Shown: positions 3,994 through 34,718 of the stretch, piece by piece
Position numbering within the stretch: position 1 is the first letter of the stretch
Layout: the number at the start of each line of letters is the position of its first letter
Source of the DNA: Patescibacteria group bacterium
GTDB lineage: Bacteria; Patescibacteriota; Minisyncoccia; Minisyncoccales; CG1-02-41-26
Reading direction: 5' to 3'
Length of the DNA stretch: 34,718 bases
Assembly (NCBI GenBank): GCA_023474835.1
Contig: JAMCXQ010000034.1
Coordinates: 1 to 34,718 of the forward strand
Notes under the pieces: model-generated
The model's input: only the letters and a program-made list of their open reading frames with translations
What the model was told of the DNA's origin: nothing
Databases searched by the model: none
Translations under genes and position numbers: made by a program

Positions 3994-4078
3994 GGTGGGG
4001 TACGAAAGTGGCTTAATCGAACGGCCTGGAGCGCCGTGCCCCGTAAGGGGCTCGTGGGTTCGAATCCCACCCCCACCG
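3994..4078 (+). tRNA. tRNA-Ser(GGA)
   Basis: Acceptor GGTGGGG/CCCCACC, anticodon stem-loop ACGGC-CTGGAGC-GCCGT, long variable arm GCCCCGTAAGGGGC, T-arm GTGGG-TTCGAAT-CCCAC; CCA not encoded. Confidence 0.95.
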
Positions 4079-4218
4079 CAAAATAATGAGCGAAGCGAAT
4101 ATATTTTGCGAGAGGGGAGCGAGCCAACTGCTTGGCTCGCGAAGGGATTCGAAGGGCGAGCCATGCCCCGTCCCAAACGGGGCCGCGAGCCCAGGGCGTA
4201 AATCCCATCCCCACCGCA
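4079..4218. repeat. Structured repeat downstream of tRNA-Ser, ending in a degenerate copy of the tRNA 3' end
   Basis: Hairpin GCGAGCCAA-CTGC-TTGGCTCGC (4119-4140); ATGCCCCGTcccaaACGGGGC variable-arm-like hairpin; AATCCCATCCCCACCGCA (4201-4218) matches tRNA-Ser 3' AATCCCACCCCCACCGCA at 17/18. Confidence 0.8.
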
Positions 4219-8812: not shown

Positions 8813-8917
8813 AATCTTGTTAGAAGTAGCGTCTTGGGGAATGGTTGTCCACAGCTTAAGTCCCGGATTCTCCGAGGGAACACCGTGGCATCCTCCAAGC
8901 TATTATTGCATACTTCT
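8784..8917 (-). ncRNA. Unclassified rod-like small RNA
   Basis: Minus-strand stem UAGAAGUA/UACUUCUA enclosing CUUGG/CCAAG, CCAC/GUGG, GUUCCC/GGGAC and apical CGGA-GAA-UCCG; bounded by promoter and terminator. Confidence 0.55.
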
Positions 8918-28273: not shown

Positions 28274-29124
28274 AGTTCAATTTTCGTACCAAAAATTCTT
28301 CAAAAATGTTGATTTTAAGCCCGAAACCCGCTCTTTGAAATTCAAATTTCTGTGATTGTATTTCCAGACATATTCTCCAAGGAAGAGAGGCAGTTTTTCT
28401 CGTCTAATTCCACCCTTGGCCGATAGCTTTCTTTTCAGATATCCCCAGAAACCTTCAAGGCCGTTAATATGGTGCCCTTTGCCGTCAGTGTATTCTTTTT
28501 TACCGTGGTCAACCAATCGGTGAACATATCCTTTAGCGGCTAATCCAGTGTAAGCCCTCCAACCATCAGAGCAAACCACCGAACCCTTAATGACTTGTTT
28601 TTCAATGAGTGGTTCCAAATCCTTGGCTTCCGTGTCCTTGACTATTTCAGCCCAGACCTTTCCTTCGCGGCACAAAATGCCAAACACCGGCTGCTTGATT
28701 GTTCCAAACCCCCGTCTGTTCTTGCTGTATTTACAACGTTCCGACAATCTCCTGTTTTTCATCTGACCGCCCAAGTATGTTTCGTCTACTTCCACTATTC
28801 CAGAAAAAACATCAGGCACCTCTTTAGCCATCGCTATCCTTAACAGAGTTAAAATTTTCAACAGTTTGTATTTGGAAATTTCAACTCTGGCAAGAATGGT
28901 ATCGGTGGAATGTTCCAACAAAAATTCTTCAATGATATTTTTTAAGATTGCTGGCTTTAATTTAAATGGATGATTTTGAAAAGTGAAGACCGAACGGCAT
29001 TGTTTACATTTTAACCGATTATCGTTTAATTGCCAAAAGTCCTTTCCTTTACAGGTTTTGCATTTGATGACCATACCTAATTTCATTGTAGTGTATTAGG
29101 TACGATTTTCAAACTTTACCCTAT
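28265..29124 (-). mobile_element. IS1595-family (ISXO2-like) insertion sequence
   Basis: Terminal repeats ATAGGGTAAAGTTcaAttttCGTACC and GGTACGattttcaAACTTTACCCTAT flank a transposase gene. Confidence 0.87.
28277..29086 (-). CDS. IS1595-family transposase
   Basis: N-terminal zinc ribbon CKTC...CKQC; 'VEVDETYLGGQ', 'VCSDGWRAY', 'HINGLEGFWGYLKRKL', 'EYVWKYNHR'. Confidence 0.93.
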   Translation of the reverse strand: MKLGMVIKCKTCKGKDFWQLNDNRLKCKQCRSVFTFQNHPFKLKPAILKNIIEEFLLEHSTDTILARVEISKYKLLKILTLLRIAMAKEVPDVFSGIVEVDETYLGGQMKNRRLSERCKYSKNRRGFGTIKQPVFGILCREGKVWAEIVKDTEAKDLEPLIEKQVIKGSVVCSDGWRAYTGLAAKGYVHRLVDHGKKEYTDGKGHHINGLEGFWGYLKRKLSAKGGIRREKLPLFLGEYVWKYNHRNLNFKERVSGLKSTFLKNFWYEN

Positions 29125-29139
29125 AATTCTATTTAAAAT

Positions 29140-29173
29140 AAGCGTGGCATGAGTTGTCACGCTTTCTTTTTCT
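29140..29173 (+). terminator. Terminator-like hairpin
   Basis: AGCGTGgCAtgagtTGtCACGCT followed by TTCTTTTTCT. Confidence 0.7.
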
Positions 29174-29183
29174 CAAAAAACTA

Positions 29184-29211
29184 TTGACAAAACTTTTGTA
29201 ATGAGTAGTAT
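29184..29211 (+). promoter_or_regulatory. Sigma-70-type promoter upstream of the T-box
   Basis: TTGACA - 16 nt - TAGTAT (overlapping TATAAA). Confidence 0.6.
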
Positions 29212-29250
29212 AAACACATAAAAGAAAAAGTAATTTGTAATTCAATTAAA

Positions 29251-29484
29251 AGCGTTGACGGGGAGAATGGGCCCCCGAGCTGAACGGTGAAACTTGAAAA
29301 AGCGCGTAGCCGTCTCCGGAAGCTGTCCGTTATCATACAGCAGCCGATGTTAGTCGGCGCGACAAGGTTTGGCCTGCCATCAGGCGGGCTGAATAAAACA
29401 AGGTGGCACCACGTTTCTGTTTCTACAGAACCGTCCTTGTAAGATTTTTGCGATGTGCAGAAATTTTACAAGGGCGGTTTTTTT
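29251..29484 (+). promoter_or_regulatory. T-box leader, probable tryptophan (UGG) specifier
   Basis: T-box motif AAGGTGGCACCACG (29400-29413); GAA-TGG-GCCCCCGAGCTG specifier context (29265-29282); ACAAGG/CCTTGT antiterminator; downstream terminator. Confidence 0.88.
29431..29484 (+). terminator. T-box attenuator terminator
   Basis: CCGTCCTTGTAA ... TTACAAGGGCGG followed by TTTTTTT. Confidence 0.9.
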
Positions 29485-29553
29485 ATAAATCGTTCTGTTG
29501 TTCTGTTAGTTAAATAATAATGGTTCATTCACAATAAAAAAGGAGAGTGTGTT

Positions 29554-30882
29554 ATGTACACCACAGACATTAAACTGGATGGCAAATATTTGGATAAACA
29601 TTTAATGATGGAGTCGTTGGCAGTTCAGGAATACAGCTTTTCAAATGAAGCTAGAGCTCATCAGGATTTGCTGCAAAACGCTGATCCAATGATTTTGGCA
29701 AAGATTGCTGAATCTGTTAAAAATGGAGGACTATCCTTTGAGGATTCCTTTGTCGGTATGCTGTTGGTTTTGGCGGCAACTAATAATCATATCCGCTTGG
29801 CTATTTTCCCCAAAATGACTTTCCCTGAAGCTATTTCAAAGGGAACGGGATTTTTGACAATAATGGCTCAAAAAGAGTTTTCTTACGGATTAACTCCGGA
29901 AGAAATCGCAGGTATGGTTGGGGCGGCAACGCTTGACATCATATTTAGATGCCCCGCATTTGAGGTGTTAGAAACATGCGGGATGGGCGGAGATAGAGGT
30001 TTTGGAACCAAAAAAGTAAAAACTATCAATGTTTCAACGTTAAGCGCTATCGTGCTTGCCGCAATGGGTTATGAGGTATTCAAACATGGTTCTCATGGGA
30101 ATACCACAAAAATAGGTTCAGTGGATATCCCTGTCAACTTCGGGGCAAAAATATGCCTTCATTCAAAAAATGCGATTGTGGATTTATTTGAAGAAACGGG
30201 CTTTTGGTTCAGCGATGCGCATAGTGTAAAAACTATCCACTATTTGTCTCATCTTCTGATGATTGAGACAATAAATCATATTATTGGTCCGATGACAATA
30301 CCTCTTGCCCACGGAGCTCGCTTGTTAAAGGTTATGGGGGTTAACCATCACGTTTCTCCTGAAACTATAGCAAGAGCATACACGATTTTGCATAAAAAGG
30401 GCTTTCTAAATCTTGGCGGGGTTATTGTTTTAGCTGGAGTAGACACCGTGCCGAACGAACAGCAATTGCAGGATGGTAGATGGGCTCAAAAACATAGTTT
30501 TTTGGATGAAGTTTCCCCAATTGCCACTGTCGCAAGTTTAGCTACAGGTGAAAATTTTGTGGGCAATTTCTTGTTTACCGATGATAGTTTTGGCTGTGGG
30601 GTATTAGCGCCTGAGAAATTAAAAATAAAGAACGAAGAGCAGGATTTGATGCGGGCGAATGAACTCGCCATAAGAGGAGAAGATGAAATTCTAACAGATT
30701 ATTTGGCAAGAAATGCCGCTATTGGATTAATGTTACTGAAGGGTAACGTCAACGGAGAGGATATCAATAATCTGCCGGCGTTTTACAAAGAATGCCTACA
30801 GAGCATTAAATCCGGCGATGCGTTTGAGAAGTTACTGGAATACATTGAAGCGTCTGGCGGCTCTTTCAGAAGTTGGCTTTAA
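29554..30882 (+). CDS. TrpD/nucleoside-phosphorylase-superfamily (glycosyltransferase family 3) phosphoribosyltransferase-like
   Basis: 'ETCGMGGDRGFGTKKVKTINVSTLSAIVLAAMGYEVFKHGSHGNTTKIGSVD' parallels TrpD GTGGD...KHG...S; SD AGGAG upstream of ATG. Confidence 0.8.
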   Translation: MYTTDIKLDGKYLDKHLMMESLAVQEYSFSNEARAHQDLLQNADPMILAKIAESVKNGGLSFEDSFVGMLLVLAATNNHIRLAIFPKMTFPEAISKGTGFLTIMAQKEFSYGLTPEEIAGMVGAATLDIIFRCPAFEVLETCGMGGDRGFGTKKVKTINVSTLSAIVLAAMGYEVFKHGSHGNTTKIGSVDIPVNFGAKICLHSKNAIVDLFEETGFWFSDAHSVKTIHYLSHLLMIETINHIIGPMTIPLAHGARLLKVMGVNHHVSPETIARAYTILHKKGFLNLGGVIVLAGVDTVPNEQQLQDGRWAQKHSFLDEVSPIATVASLATGENFVGNFLFTDDSFGCGVLAPEKLKIKNEEQDLMRANELAIRGEDEILTDYLARNAAIGLMLLKGNVNGEDINNLPAFYKECLQSIKSGDAFEKLLEYIEASGGSFRSWL

Positions 30883-30936
30883 TAATATATTAAAGCCAAA
30901 TGCGTTAAGTAATTACTTAGCGCATTTCTTTTTTTG
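30873..30936. terminator. Two adjacent hairpins between convergent genes; second is a likely bidirectional terminator
   Basis: TTGGCTTTAATA-ata-TATTAAAGCCAA, then AAATGCGTTAAGTAATTACTTAGCGCATTT followed by CTTTTTTTT. Confidence 0.8.
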
Positions 30937-31755
30937 TATAATGGCCTTTACAAAACCTTTTGTTTTAACAAGATCTATCTTAGCTTGCCATGGCTTTAAA
31001 TTCACCTCCGTTTTTTTTGATCGCTTTGCCCCCGATTTTAGAGATGTTGCTACGATTACACCGTTGGCGTATCGCAGAAGTGTTTTTACATTCTCTTTTG
31101 TAGCTCCACTGCCGACAAAAATTGGAAAGTCGTCCCCTGCTACCCCTCTTGCTTCTTTTAACTCGTCAAGATTGGGCATATCCCCTGTCCACTTTCCAGT
31201 AATGATTAAACCATCAGAGCCATTTTGTTTCGCTTCTCTGACGGATTGGGTAATAGTTTTTTGCTCAAGCATTTCCGCGTGTTTAACATGAATATCGGTT
31301 AGCAACGCAACGTCTAAGGCGCCAATATTTTTTCTGAATTTCAAAACATCTTCTGGATTAACCATTATTCTCCCGTAGTCAGTTTTGACGCTATCAACAA
31401 AAACAGGCACTCTTATAAATTGACAATTGCAGATTTTTGCAATTGACAAGGCCGTTTTATAATCATTCCATAAAACGCAAATTCCCAATGGAATTTTAAT
31501 TTCATTTTTTATTTTAGATATTAAAAATGTCATTGTTGCAACAGTTTCTGGTCCCACAAAAATTTTATGCGGAATATCATAATTATTTTCTACCATTATG
31601 GCGTCAACCCCGCCTTTTTCTAATGTTTTTGCATCCCGTAACGCCTTTTTCAAACAAACATTAACCTCAGGAAAATTCTTATACCCCAAAAGCGGCGGGA
31701 AATGGACCATTCCTATTATTATATTTTGTTTTTTGTTGAATATTTTTTCTAGCAC
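30913..31755 (-). CDS. BtpA/SgcQ family TIM-barrel protein
   Basis: 'IIGMVHFPPLLGY', 'GGVDAIMVENNYDIPH', 'LTDIHVKHAEML', 'VGSGATKENVKTLL'; GTG start. Confidence 0.87.
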   Translation of the reverse strand: MLEKIFNKKQNIIIGMVHFPPLLGYKNFPEVNVCLKKALRDAKTLEKGGVDAIMVENNYDIPHKIFVGPETVATMTFLISKIKNEIKIPLGICVLWNDYKTALSIAKICNCQFIRVPVFVDSVKTDYGRIMVNPEDVLKFRKNIGALDVALLTDIHVKHAEMLEQKTITQSVREAKQNGSDGLIITGKWTGDMPNLDELKEARGVAGDDFPIFVGSGATKENVKTLLRYANGVIVATSLKSGAKRSKKTEVNLKPWQAKIDLVKTKGFVKAIIQKKKCAK

Positions 31756-31762
31756 AAATAAA

Positions 31763-32707
31763 TTATCTTTTATTTAGGCGGAATATTAAGTTGATAAAAT
31801 CCTCAATAAACTTTTGCCCATCAATTTTAACAGCCACTTTAACATTGGGGTTTTTCGACGCTGCAATTCGTCTTTCCGCAACTGACATTCCAAAAGTATA
31901 TTCCCCATTTGTTTCAATTTTTATATCCATTTCTTCAAGTTGGAAAGCATCTGGATTTATCAAGTAATAAGCCGCTAATGGGTCATACATCAAAGCTCCT
32001 GCTATTCCATCAAATTTTTTGAGATTTTCAATGTAAGGAATTAACATTTTAGATAAAGTTTTGCCAATTAATCCGCTTTGCCCAATTTCTCTAATTGCGT
32101 TTTCTGGTAAAATAATGTCATTGCAAGCATCTAACGGAATTAGAACTTTTTCTACTTCTGAATCAAAAATAATTTTTGCGGCTTCTGGGTCAACAAAAAA
32201 ATTAAATTCCGCTACCCTGTTTTTATTGCCTGGCACAGTAATAGCTCCACCCATTATAATTACTTGCTTAATCATTTTTGGTAAAGATGGGTCTTTTAAA
32301 AAAGCTTTTGCGATATTGGTCAATGGCCCAAGAGTTAGCAGGGTTATTTCTTTGGGATCTTGTTTGACAATTTCAATAATTTTGTCAGACGCCTCATCTA
32401 TCGTTGGTTCTAACGGTAAACTTTCAGCACCAGAACCGTCTAATCCAGAAATTCCATGCACATTTGCCTTAATTAAATCTCGCTCAATGGGCTTTGATGC
32501 TCCAGCGTAAAGTGGAATATGCTCTTTTTTGGCTAAATTCAAAATATACTTGGCATTACGCGTGGTGTTTTCAATGGTGCTATTTCCAGCCACAGTAGTT
32601 ATTGCCAATATTTCTATCTGTGGAACAGCAAAAAGCATCAACAAGGCCATGGCGTCGTCATGGCCTGGATCCGTGTCAATAATAATTTTGTTTTTTTCTT
32701 CTACCAT
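31763..32707 (-). CDS. Inosine-uridine preferring nucleoside hydrolase family
   Basis: 'IIIDTDPGHDDAMALLML', 'VAGNSTIENTTRNAKYIL', 'ITLLTLGPLTNIAKAF'. Confidence 0.95.
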   Translation of the reverse strand: MVEEKNKIIIDTDPGHDDAMALLMLFAVPQIEILAITTVAGNSTIENTTRNAKYILNLAKKEHIPLYAGASKPIERDLIKANVHGISGLDGSGAESLPLEPTIDEASDKIIEIVKQDPKEITLLTLGPLTNIAKAFLKDPSLPKMIKQVIIMGGAITVPGNKNRVAEFNFFVDPEAAKIIFDSEVEKVLIPLDACNDIILPENAIREIGQSGLIGKTLSKMLIPYIENLKKFDGIAGALMYDPLAAYYLINPDAFQLEEMDIKIETNGEYTFGMSVAERRIAASKNPNVKVAVKIDGQKFIEDFINLIFRLNKR

Positions 32708-32831
32708 AGAGATTAGAGGTTCAAATTATCTTTGTATCTCTTTTAAAATAAATTATAGCATTTGATTAGAATAAAATAAATCAGGGGAGTATTCAACTAA
32801 TTGAAATTCTCCCCTTTTTGAATTGGTTATT

Positions 32832-33821
32832 TTATTTTTTCTTTCGTAGATAAAAAACACCTAAAAAGGTAACAATCGCCCCTGCGGAACGCATTGCCCA
32901 AGAAGTCCATTCTTCGGGGATTCCATTACCGAATGCTCCTGGGGACAAAATATTACCTATTGCAGTGATGGGCACGCCCATCGCAATCTTGGAGTTAATC
33001 AGTAAAAATACTACGGTTAAAGATTCGAATTTTAAGGCTTTTTGAGATAAGACATTATAAAGAGAGGCCAAAACCATCGTGATAGCAATCCACACAAAAG
33101 CGTTGAGATTTAGCATGCTTCGCATTTCTAACAAATCACAGAATTTCCCTCTTATTAACGCTAGGGAAGGTACGAGAATTGTGGCCACAGCGCTAAGCCA
33201 TATAAACCGCCATAAGCTAAAGGTCACGGCATCAGCGCTTTTTACTCCTTTCTTTCTGGTTCCATCCCCGAAAGCATTCAAACCAGAACATACAATAGCA
33301 ATAAGCACAACGCCCCAAACAGTAATTTTGATATTATCGGATATATGCTGTATGGAAGCCATGATAGAACCGAGAATTACTAAACTCGCTGGTAATAAAA
33401 TATTTTTTCCTTTTATATTTTTCTTAATCACATCGTACATTGCCATGTAAAAGACAGCACAACATCCTAATATCAAAATTAAAGAAGGATCTAACATTTG
33501 GCTGCCTCTAAGATAAAACAGAGTAGAAGTAGCTCCAAAAATTCCTGACAAAGCGGCATACTTGTGCATATTTCTTGTCCCAAAAGTAAATCCTGGATAT
33601 TCTGGATCTAATTGCTTCCCAAATATTTTATTACATATTAAAACGCATATGATATACACCCATGATCCTACCACTAAGTAAAACGAAGCAGCTGTAATTT
33701 GATCTTGAGAGGTAATCACACTGCGTACGATGTAGTTATCTATCGCTGCGTTTAGCGAAGTGAATAACGCTGCGATTAGAGCGATGGTCAAGACCCCTTT
33801 CGATACTTTTTCTCTATTCAT
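32832..33821 (-). CDS. DMT/EamA-like membrane transporter
   Basis: About 10 hydrophobic segments in a DMT-like arrangement; SD GGGAGG upstream of ATG. Confidence 0.7.
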   Translation of the reverse strand: MNREKVSKGVLTIALIAALFTSLNAAIDNYIVRSVITSQDQITAASFYLVVGSWVYIICVLICNKIFGKQLDPEYPGFTFGTRNMHKYAALSGIFGATSTLFYLRGSQMLDPSLILILGCCAVFYMAMYDVIKKNIKGKNILLPASLVILGSIMASIQHISDNIKITVWGVVLIAIVCSGLNAFGDGTRKKGVKSADAVTFSLWRFIWLSAVATILVPSLALIRGKFCDLLEMRSMLNLNAFVWIAITMVLASLYNVLSQKALKFESLTVVFLLINSKIAMGVPITAIGNILSPGAFGNGIPEEWTSWAMRSAGAIVTFLGVFYLRKKK

Positions 33822-33823
33822 TT

Positions 33824-34718
33824 CTATCCTCCCTTTCTAAATATTGATTGGTAATCAAGGTGCATCGCCTTTCTTACCGCTGCTATTGTGATCTCGCCAA
33901 TTTCACGAGCTCTGTTAGTGCCAGAAGCCAAATAATCACCAATGGGTTCTTCCTCTGCTAACATGCGGCGTTGGCGGATTGGCTCAAGAAATTTATTCAA
34001 AACTTCCGCAAGAACATCCTTGCATTGCACGCAACCTAGGTCACCCGTTGAGCAAGATTTATATCTCCCAGAAAATGTTTTTCTGTTGCCAAATAACTTA
34101 TGATATTTGTAAACAGGACAAGTTTTTGGATGTCCAGGATCATTTTTTCTTATTTTTTGCGGATCCGTGAACATATTTTTAACAATCCTCACAACATCTT
34201 CAGCGCTGTCTTTGAGCTGGATTACATTACCCAAAGACTTACTCATCTTTGCTTGACCATCTGTGCCTACAAGACGACCCACTAACCCCACTTTTGCTTC
34301 ACACCTTTGAAAAACATTACCATACTTATAGTTAAATATCCGGGCAATATCAGCTGCCTCCTCTATATGAGGAACCTGATCTTCTCCTACCGGTACGAGT
34401 AAATGGTTTTCTTGTTGTGGTGGATATGGAGTGAATAATAAAATATCCGCCGCCTGACTTATTGGGTAAATCATAAATCCAGCGGTTGGCGAAGAGTTCA
34501 TTTGTGCCAATTCTGCTTTAATGGTTGGGTTACCCTCCATTCTTGAAAATGGCACAATCATTGAGAAATACGCCGTAAGTTCAGTAAGCTCTGGCACATG
34601 GCTCTGTAAAACGAAATGTGTATTTGGTTTTGTTGGATTTAATCCTACGGCAATAAAGTCAAGAACTACTTCCCTTACCGCTTGTTCTATTACCGATGGC
34701 TTATCTACATGAGTTGTT
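33824..34718 (-). CDS. trpS: Tryptophan--tRNA ligase (partial, continues past window edge)
   Basis: 'PISQAADILLFTPY...VPVGEDQVPHIEEAADIA', 'AKMSKSLGNVIQL'; reading frame stays open to the window end (…HVDKPSVIEQAVREVVLDFIAVGLNPTKPNTHFVLQSHVPELT). Confidence 0.94.
   Translation of the reverse strand, partial: TTHVDKPSVIEQAVREVVLDFIAVGLNPTKPNTHFVLQSHVPELTELTAYFSMIVPFSRMEGNPTIKAELAQMNSSPTAGFMIYPISQAADILLFTPYPPQQENHLLVPVGEDQVPHIEEAADIARIFNYKYGNVFQRCEAKVGLVGRLVGTDGQAKMSKSLGNVIQLKDSAEDVVRIVKNMFTDPQKIRKNDPGHPKTCPVYKYHKLFGNRKTFSGRYKSCSTGDLGCVQCKDVLAEVLNKFLEPIRQRRMLAEEEPIGDYLASGTNRAREIGEITIAAVRKAMHLDYQSIFRKGG

Follow-up and report, generated by a model that had tools for sequence, protein, structure and literature searches.

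A predicted tryptophan T-box riboswitch with an ultrashort stem I and an intrinsic terminator upstream of a TrpD-like gene in a reduced Patescibacteria-like genome

The window analysed here, a DNA stretch of 34,718 nucleotides, belongs to a reduced Patescibacteria-like genome (647 kb, 35 contigs, 93.8% estimated completeness). Its plus strand encodes, at positions 29554–30882, a 442-residue protein resembling anthranilate phosphoribosyltransferase (TrpD), as judged from matches to PF00591 (E = 8e-20), to the trpD model TIGR01245 (E = 2.5e-27, under the equivalog cut-off) and to TrpD entries of the PDB. The nearest named relative is a WWE3 MAG (46% protein identity), which together with the small genome suggests a WWE3/Patescibacteria affinity. 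Homologues of the TrpD-like protein are rare in the order, being present in 2 of 247 genomes, that of the window included. A search of the genome for PF00291, the family of tryptophan synthase beta, detected no member, although 14 of 14 control genomes were positive; tryptophan synthesis thus seems to lack its classical final step, but a gene may have been missed given an assembly completeness of ~94%. A minus-strand cluster convergent to the TrpD-like gene (30913–34718) encodes TrpRS, a 329-residue membrane-like protein, a nucleoside hydrolase and a BtpA-family protein; the TrpRS gene is interrupted by a run of N and runs off the window end. An IS1595-type transposase gene (28277–29086, minus strand) lies directly upstream of the leader discussed below, and a DUF3800-V RNA (RF02964; 74.3 bits, well over the cut-off) was found at 8822–8917, also on the minus strand.

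Sequence and comparison place a Trp T-box riboswitch at 29248–29484, 5′ of the TrpD-like gene; all its features are on the plus strand. A local cmscan search, a check proposed in the earlier note on this DNA, matched the Rfam T-box model RF00230 at 29246–29441 with 45.7 bits (E = 5.7e-9). The curated gathering cut-off of this model is 93 bits, and a default Rfam scan reported no T-box at 29248–29484 because the match falls below that score. By the gathering threshold the element is thus outside RF00230; that threshold is a database setting rather than a biological feature. The T-box motif, AAGGUGGCACCACG, was located exactly where the earlier note had seen it, and the antiterminator and terminator that it described as canonical are both there.

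A sigma-70-like promoter is predicted at 29184–29211 (TTGACA, spacer 16, TAGTAT; 10 of 12 matches in a consensus scan), and the transcript is expected to start near 29218, about 33 nt 5′ of the base of stem I. The region 5′ of 29248 is AT-rich and carries a terminator-like hairpin at 29140–29164; among close relatives, sequence conservation begins at AAAAGCG. Stem I itself, delimited by alignment with relatives, pair counts and a descriptor match, spans only 31 nt (29251–29281). It consists of a 3-bp basal helix (29251–29253/29279–29281), an internal loop, GUUGA/CGA, which is kink-turn-like by its pattern, a 4-bp upper helix (29260–29263/29272–29275) and an 8-nt apical loop, AGAAUGGG (29264–29271). 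This loop holds the specifier UGG (Trp, 29268–29270) followed by the purine G29271, in the context AGAAUGGGCCCCC (GAA-UGG-G). This is the arrangement of the ultrashort class, in which a short stem I joined through a kink-turn carries the specifier in its apical loop; of the interdigitated double T-loop that marks long stems I, neither T-loop is present in the 31 nt.

The earlier note had proposed a 5-bp stem, CGGGG/CCCCG, with UGG in its loop. The placement of UGG stands, but the register has to be shifted by one. In the single sequence the 5-bp register 29259–29263/29273–29277 is preferred (pair probability ~0.85 vs 0.12), whereas the comparative data favour the 4-bp register given above, since the kink-turn-like loop includes G29277-A29278. 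G29277, which the 5-bp register uses, sits within conserved CGAGCU, and the helices GUUGGG/CCCAAC or AAGAGG/CCUCUU of relatives also point to the 4-bp register.

The leader was aligned with those of L151 and L153, from the same family of genomes, and its functional positions are nearly invariant among the three. The structure tested on them was assigned by hand and comprised the basal helix, the short upper helix, stem II, IIA/B and an extra hairpin. All 72 of 72 cells were paired and five pairs were changed on both sides; the covariation score was 0.333 vs 0.159 for shuffled alignments (reached in 0 of 500), and it dropped to 0.014–0.045 when the structure was slid by 1–3 columns. A model from these three sequences was used to search other genomes of the phylum. 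The AGAAUGGG loop is identical in five relatives, standing 5′ of trpS in L163, L164 and L166 and 5′ of a TrpB-like gene in L151, while the helix around it varies by compensatory substitution. Aligned with one another, ten short stems I of the Trp type keep UGGG without exception, six of six helix pairs show double changes, and the covariation score is 0.700 vs 0.222 shuffled (0 of 500), which bears out the earlier proposal that an ultrashort stem I presents UGG as specifier in its apical loop. TrpD-like relatives in L003, L145, L042 and L050 also lie behind T-boxes, there with UGG in longer stems I. The TrpRS proteins under the same Trp T-box in L163 and L164 carry an N-terminal extension of ~160–170 residues outside the trpS model match. 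In L165 (1500–1680), a Trp-type stem I, stem II and F-box are followed directly by coding-looking sequence, and neither a T-box motif nor a terminator was found in that interval; deletion, mis-assembly or another use could each account for this.

Downstream of stem I, stem II (29284–29313) pairs 29284–29287 with 29310–29313, with a compensatory change, and its conserved strands UGAA/GUAG suggest an S-turn. It is followed by the IIA/B pseudoknot (29317–29341), which contains the F-box CCGUUA (29327–29332) and whose helices 29317–29319/29327–29329 and 29322–29326/29337–29341 are paired in all three close relatives, with one compensatory change. An extra hairpin (29343–29358) with two compensatory changes occupies the interval before stem III (29367–29394), which is predicted with covariation. 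In unconstrained minimum-energy folds of the single sequence the full T-box architecture does not appear. RNAalifold, run on the three sequences, pairs UGGGCC with the T-box motif; we judged this pairing unlikely, as its pairs never vary and it would be incompatible with relatives whose 3′ arm differs, such as L166.

The antiterminator (29398–29440, −13.4 kcal/mol), recognised from the T-box motif and the RF00230 match, is composed of helix A1 (ACAAGG/CCUUGU), the bulge UGGCACC (29404–29410) and the A2 hairpin. An intrinsic terminator with a 7-T run was found by terminator scan at 29431–29484 (hairpin −34.5 kcal/mol). The 5′ arm of this hairpin shares sequence with the 3′ strands of both A1 and A2 and uses CCGUCCUUGU of the antiterminator, so that the two structures are mutually exclusive, as in class I T-boxes. 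The whole segment folds at −40.1 kcal/mol when free vs −23.6 kcal/mol with the antiterminator forced; hence read-through would call for an outside stabiliser, e.g. uncharged tRNA. The Shine-Dalgarno-like AGGAG (29541–29545) lies ~57 nt past the terminator and outside any switch helix, and thus is not sequestered as in the actinobacterial type. Control therefore looks transcriptional, in line with what had been proposed from the letters alone.

The same genome carries a tRNA-Trp gene with anticodon CCA and an encoded G73-CCA. The genome's own tRNA-Trp consequently matches the element twice, by CCA to UGG and by G73 to the C of the bulge, whose UGGC is complementary to the GCCA end of the tRNA; the earlier expectation of a discriminator G73 is borne out by this gene. 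A second T-box of the same genome precedes serS and has a short stem I with UCC; a tRNA-Ser (GGA) with G73 is encoded at 3994–4079 of the window.

From these features, a mechanism may be proposed: the element is very probably a T-box riboswitch that senses tRNA-Trp through an ultrashort stem I and attenuates transcription of the TrpD-like gene. By analogy with the known T-box mechanism, the nascent RNA would present UGG in the apical loop of the 4-bp stem I, and the kink-turn-like loop would connect this stem with stem II and IIA/B, two elements that may brace the codon-anticodon duplex and so replace the missing contact with the tRNA elbow. Uncharged tRNA-Trp (CCA, G73) would pair at UGG, its free GCCA end would pair with the bulge UGGC, and the antiterminator stabilised in this way would let RNA polymerase read through. 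Charged tRNA-Trp would be unable to stabilise the antiterminator, and the far more stable terminator would form.

Four other readings were weighed. A canonical T-box, transcribed from a more distant upstream start and equipped with a complete stem I including the double T-loop for elbow binding, is very improbable. The start site is a predicted one, and a canonical long T-box, L146, does exist in the same family. However, the upstream region is AT-rich and already holds the promoter at 29184–29211 and the terminator-like hairpin at 29140–29164, relatives are conserved from AAAAGCG onward only, and stem I is closed at 29251/29281 with no AGAGA/UGxRA pair in between. We looked specifically for such an upstream start, which the earlier note had named as fatal to its proposal, and found neither another promoter nor a conserved stretch or complementary arm. 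There is still less reason to favour another specifier, such as AUG (Met), GGG (Gly) or GGC (Gly), for which only the overlapping triplets of the loop (AGAAUGGGC) speak: it is UGG that precedes a purine and is invariant 5′ of trpS, TrpB-like and TrpD-like genes, and the genome's tRNA-Trp, with CCA and G73, matches UGG and UGGC. A search for a different specifier yielded none better than UGG.

Translational control, as in the actinobacterial ultrashort ileS T-boxes, is just as doubtful as a change of specifier. Ultrashort stems I have been described mainly for such actinobacterial translational T-boxes (PMC7583486), but here the leader has a strong terminator with its 7-T run, AGGAG at 29541 stands apart from the switch, and terminators follow 94 of 104 relatives. 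Least probable of all is a decayed T-box remnant within a reduced genome: the short stem I, the sub-threshold Rfam score and the failure to find tryptophan synthase beta would agree with decay, yet compensatory changes and invariant functional positions extend across genera and families, and the motif, the terminator and the ORF are all intact. We therefore retain the tRNA-Trp-sensing transcriptional switch as the preferred reading.

The Trp T-box at 29248–29484 is one of many such T-boxes in the phylum. Of 384 genomes in the class, 78 have an RF00230 match, in no case above the Rfam cut-off; of 287 genomes in a phylum sample, 95 have one, and only nine of these exceed the cut-off, so that 86 of the 95 matching genomes have no match above it. 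The genes downstream of the class T-boxes are mostly those for aminoacyl-tRNA synthetases and Trp genes, and an intrinsic terminator lies 3′ of 94 of 104 class T-boxes vs 7 of 104 shuffled sequences. An ultrashort stem I descriptor, in a relaxed version with thresholds set after the sequences were seen, fits about a third of the class T-boxes (38 of 118, vs 4.9 expected from shuffles), and the cognate specifier was present in 25 of 34 labelled descriptor cases vs 0.25 expected. The full-length L146 (98.4 bits, 5′ of a proB-like kinase gene), with its double T-loop, indicates that stems I in the same family are not short for want of the long form.

Some glycine and threonine T-boxes may be stranger than the Trp element. 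Those 5′ of glyS (L028, L035, L038, L056, L067, L074, L082) have a short specifier hairpin containing GGC, which their consensus fold retains with covariation; neither stem II nor an F-box is recognisable in them, and only ~76–120 nt separate the predicted start from the T-box. Eight thrS loci (L024, L037, L043, L046, L072, L075, L085, L086) carry a short hairpin whose loop holds ACCAA in every case, and an S-turn or F-box is not clearly discernible in them; when the Thr T-boxes were folded to a consensus, little shared structure emerged. Two further thrS T-boxes, L137 (1627–1666) and L154, have very little leader: in L137 a promoter-like site, TTGACA-16-TATAGT, ends ~34 nt 5′ of the T-box, and the leader is one small hairpin without a Thr codon in its loop. 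L137 and L154 may be degenerate or specifier-less.

Compared with known systems, the Trp element shares with the actinobacterial ileS T-box (translational, class II) a very short stem I that carries the specifier at its apex, the lack of an elbow-binding double T-loop and the retention of stem II with an S-turn and of IIA/B; it differs in its amino acid, tryptophan, in its use of a transcription terminator where the ileS element sequesters the Shine-Dalgarno sequence, and in its Patescibacteria-like host. With canonical transcriptional T-boxes (class I, RF00230; e.g. those of Bacillus, and L146) it has in common the antiterminator/terminator switch, the UGGN bulge, stem II, the F-box and stem III, but it is without the distal stem I and the interdigitated double T-loop, and scores under the Rfam cut-off. 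The Trp T-boxes with an intermediate stem I (L003, L145, L042, L050, L155) likewise combine a UGG specifier, Trp-related genes and terminators, but in these an additional hairpin sits above an internal loop, and UGG occupies the 3′ strand of that loop. The main text of the TBDB description mentions class I T-boxes with a truncated stem I, without detail (PMC7778990). No literature linking T-box riboswitches to Patescibacteria or the Candidate Phyla Radiation was found, which is weak evidence given the poor coverage of subscription papers. What we rate as new, judging from sequence, is the combination of an ultrashort stem I, apparent transcriptional control and tryptophan.

In transcriptional T-boxes the elbow-binding tip of stem I has been held essential, for both speed and affinity (PMC7583486). 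The occurrence of the ultrashort design together with terminators, in the Trp element and across a large phylum sample, makes this claim testable with short RNAs. It is an evenly balanced question whether a phylum-wide radiation of T-boxes, mostly unseen by Rfam, senses tRNA co-transcriptionally with no recognition of the elbow, and whether certain Gly and Thr members have also shed stem II and IIA/B, leaving a specifier hairpin, stem III and the antiterminator in a leader of ~80–120 nt. If true, this would contradict the view of the elbow contact as essential for transcriptional T-boxes, as well as that of stem II as essential where stem I is short. The Rfam threshold hides most T-boxes in the phylum sample, and their presence suggests that reduced bacteria, which probably depend on hosts, regulate genes in response to amino acids.
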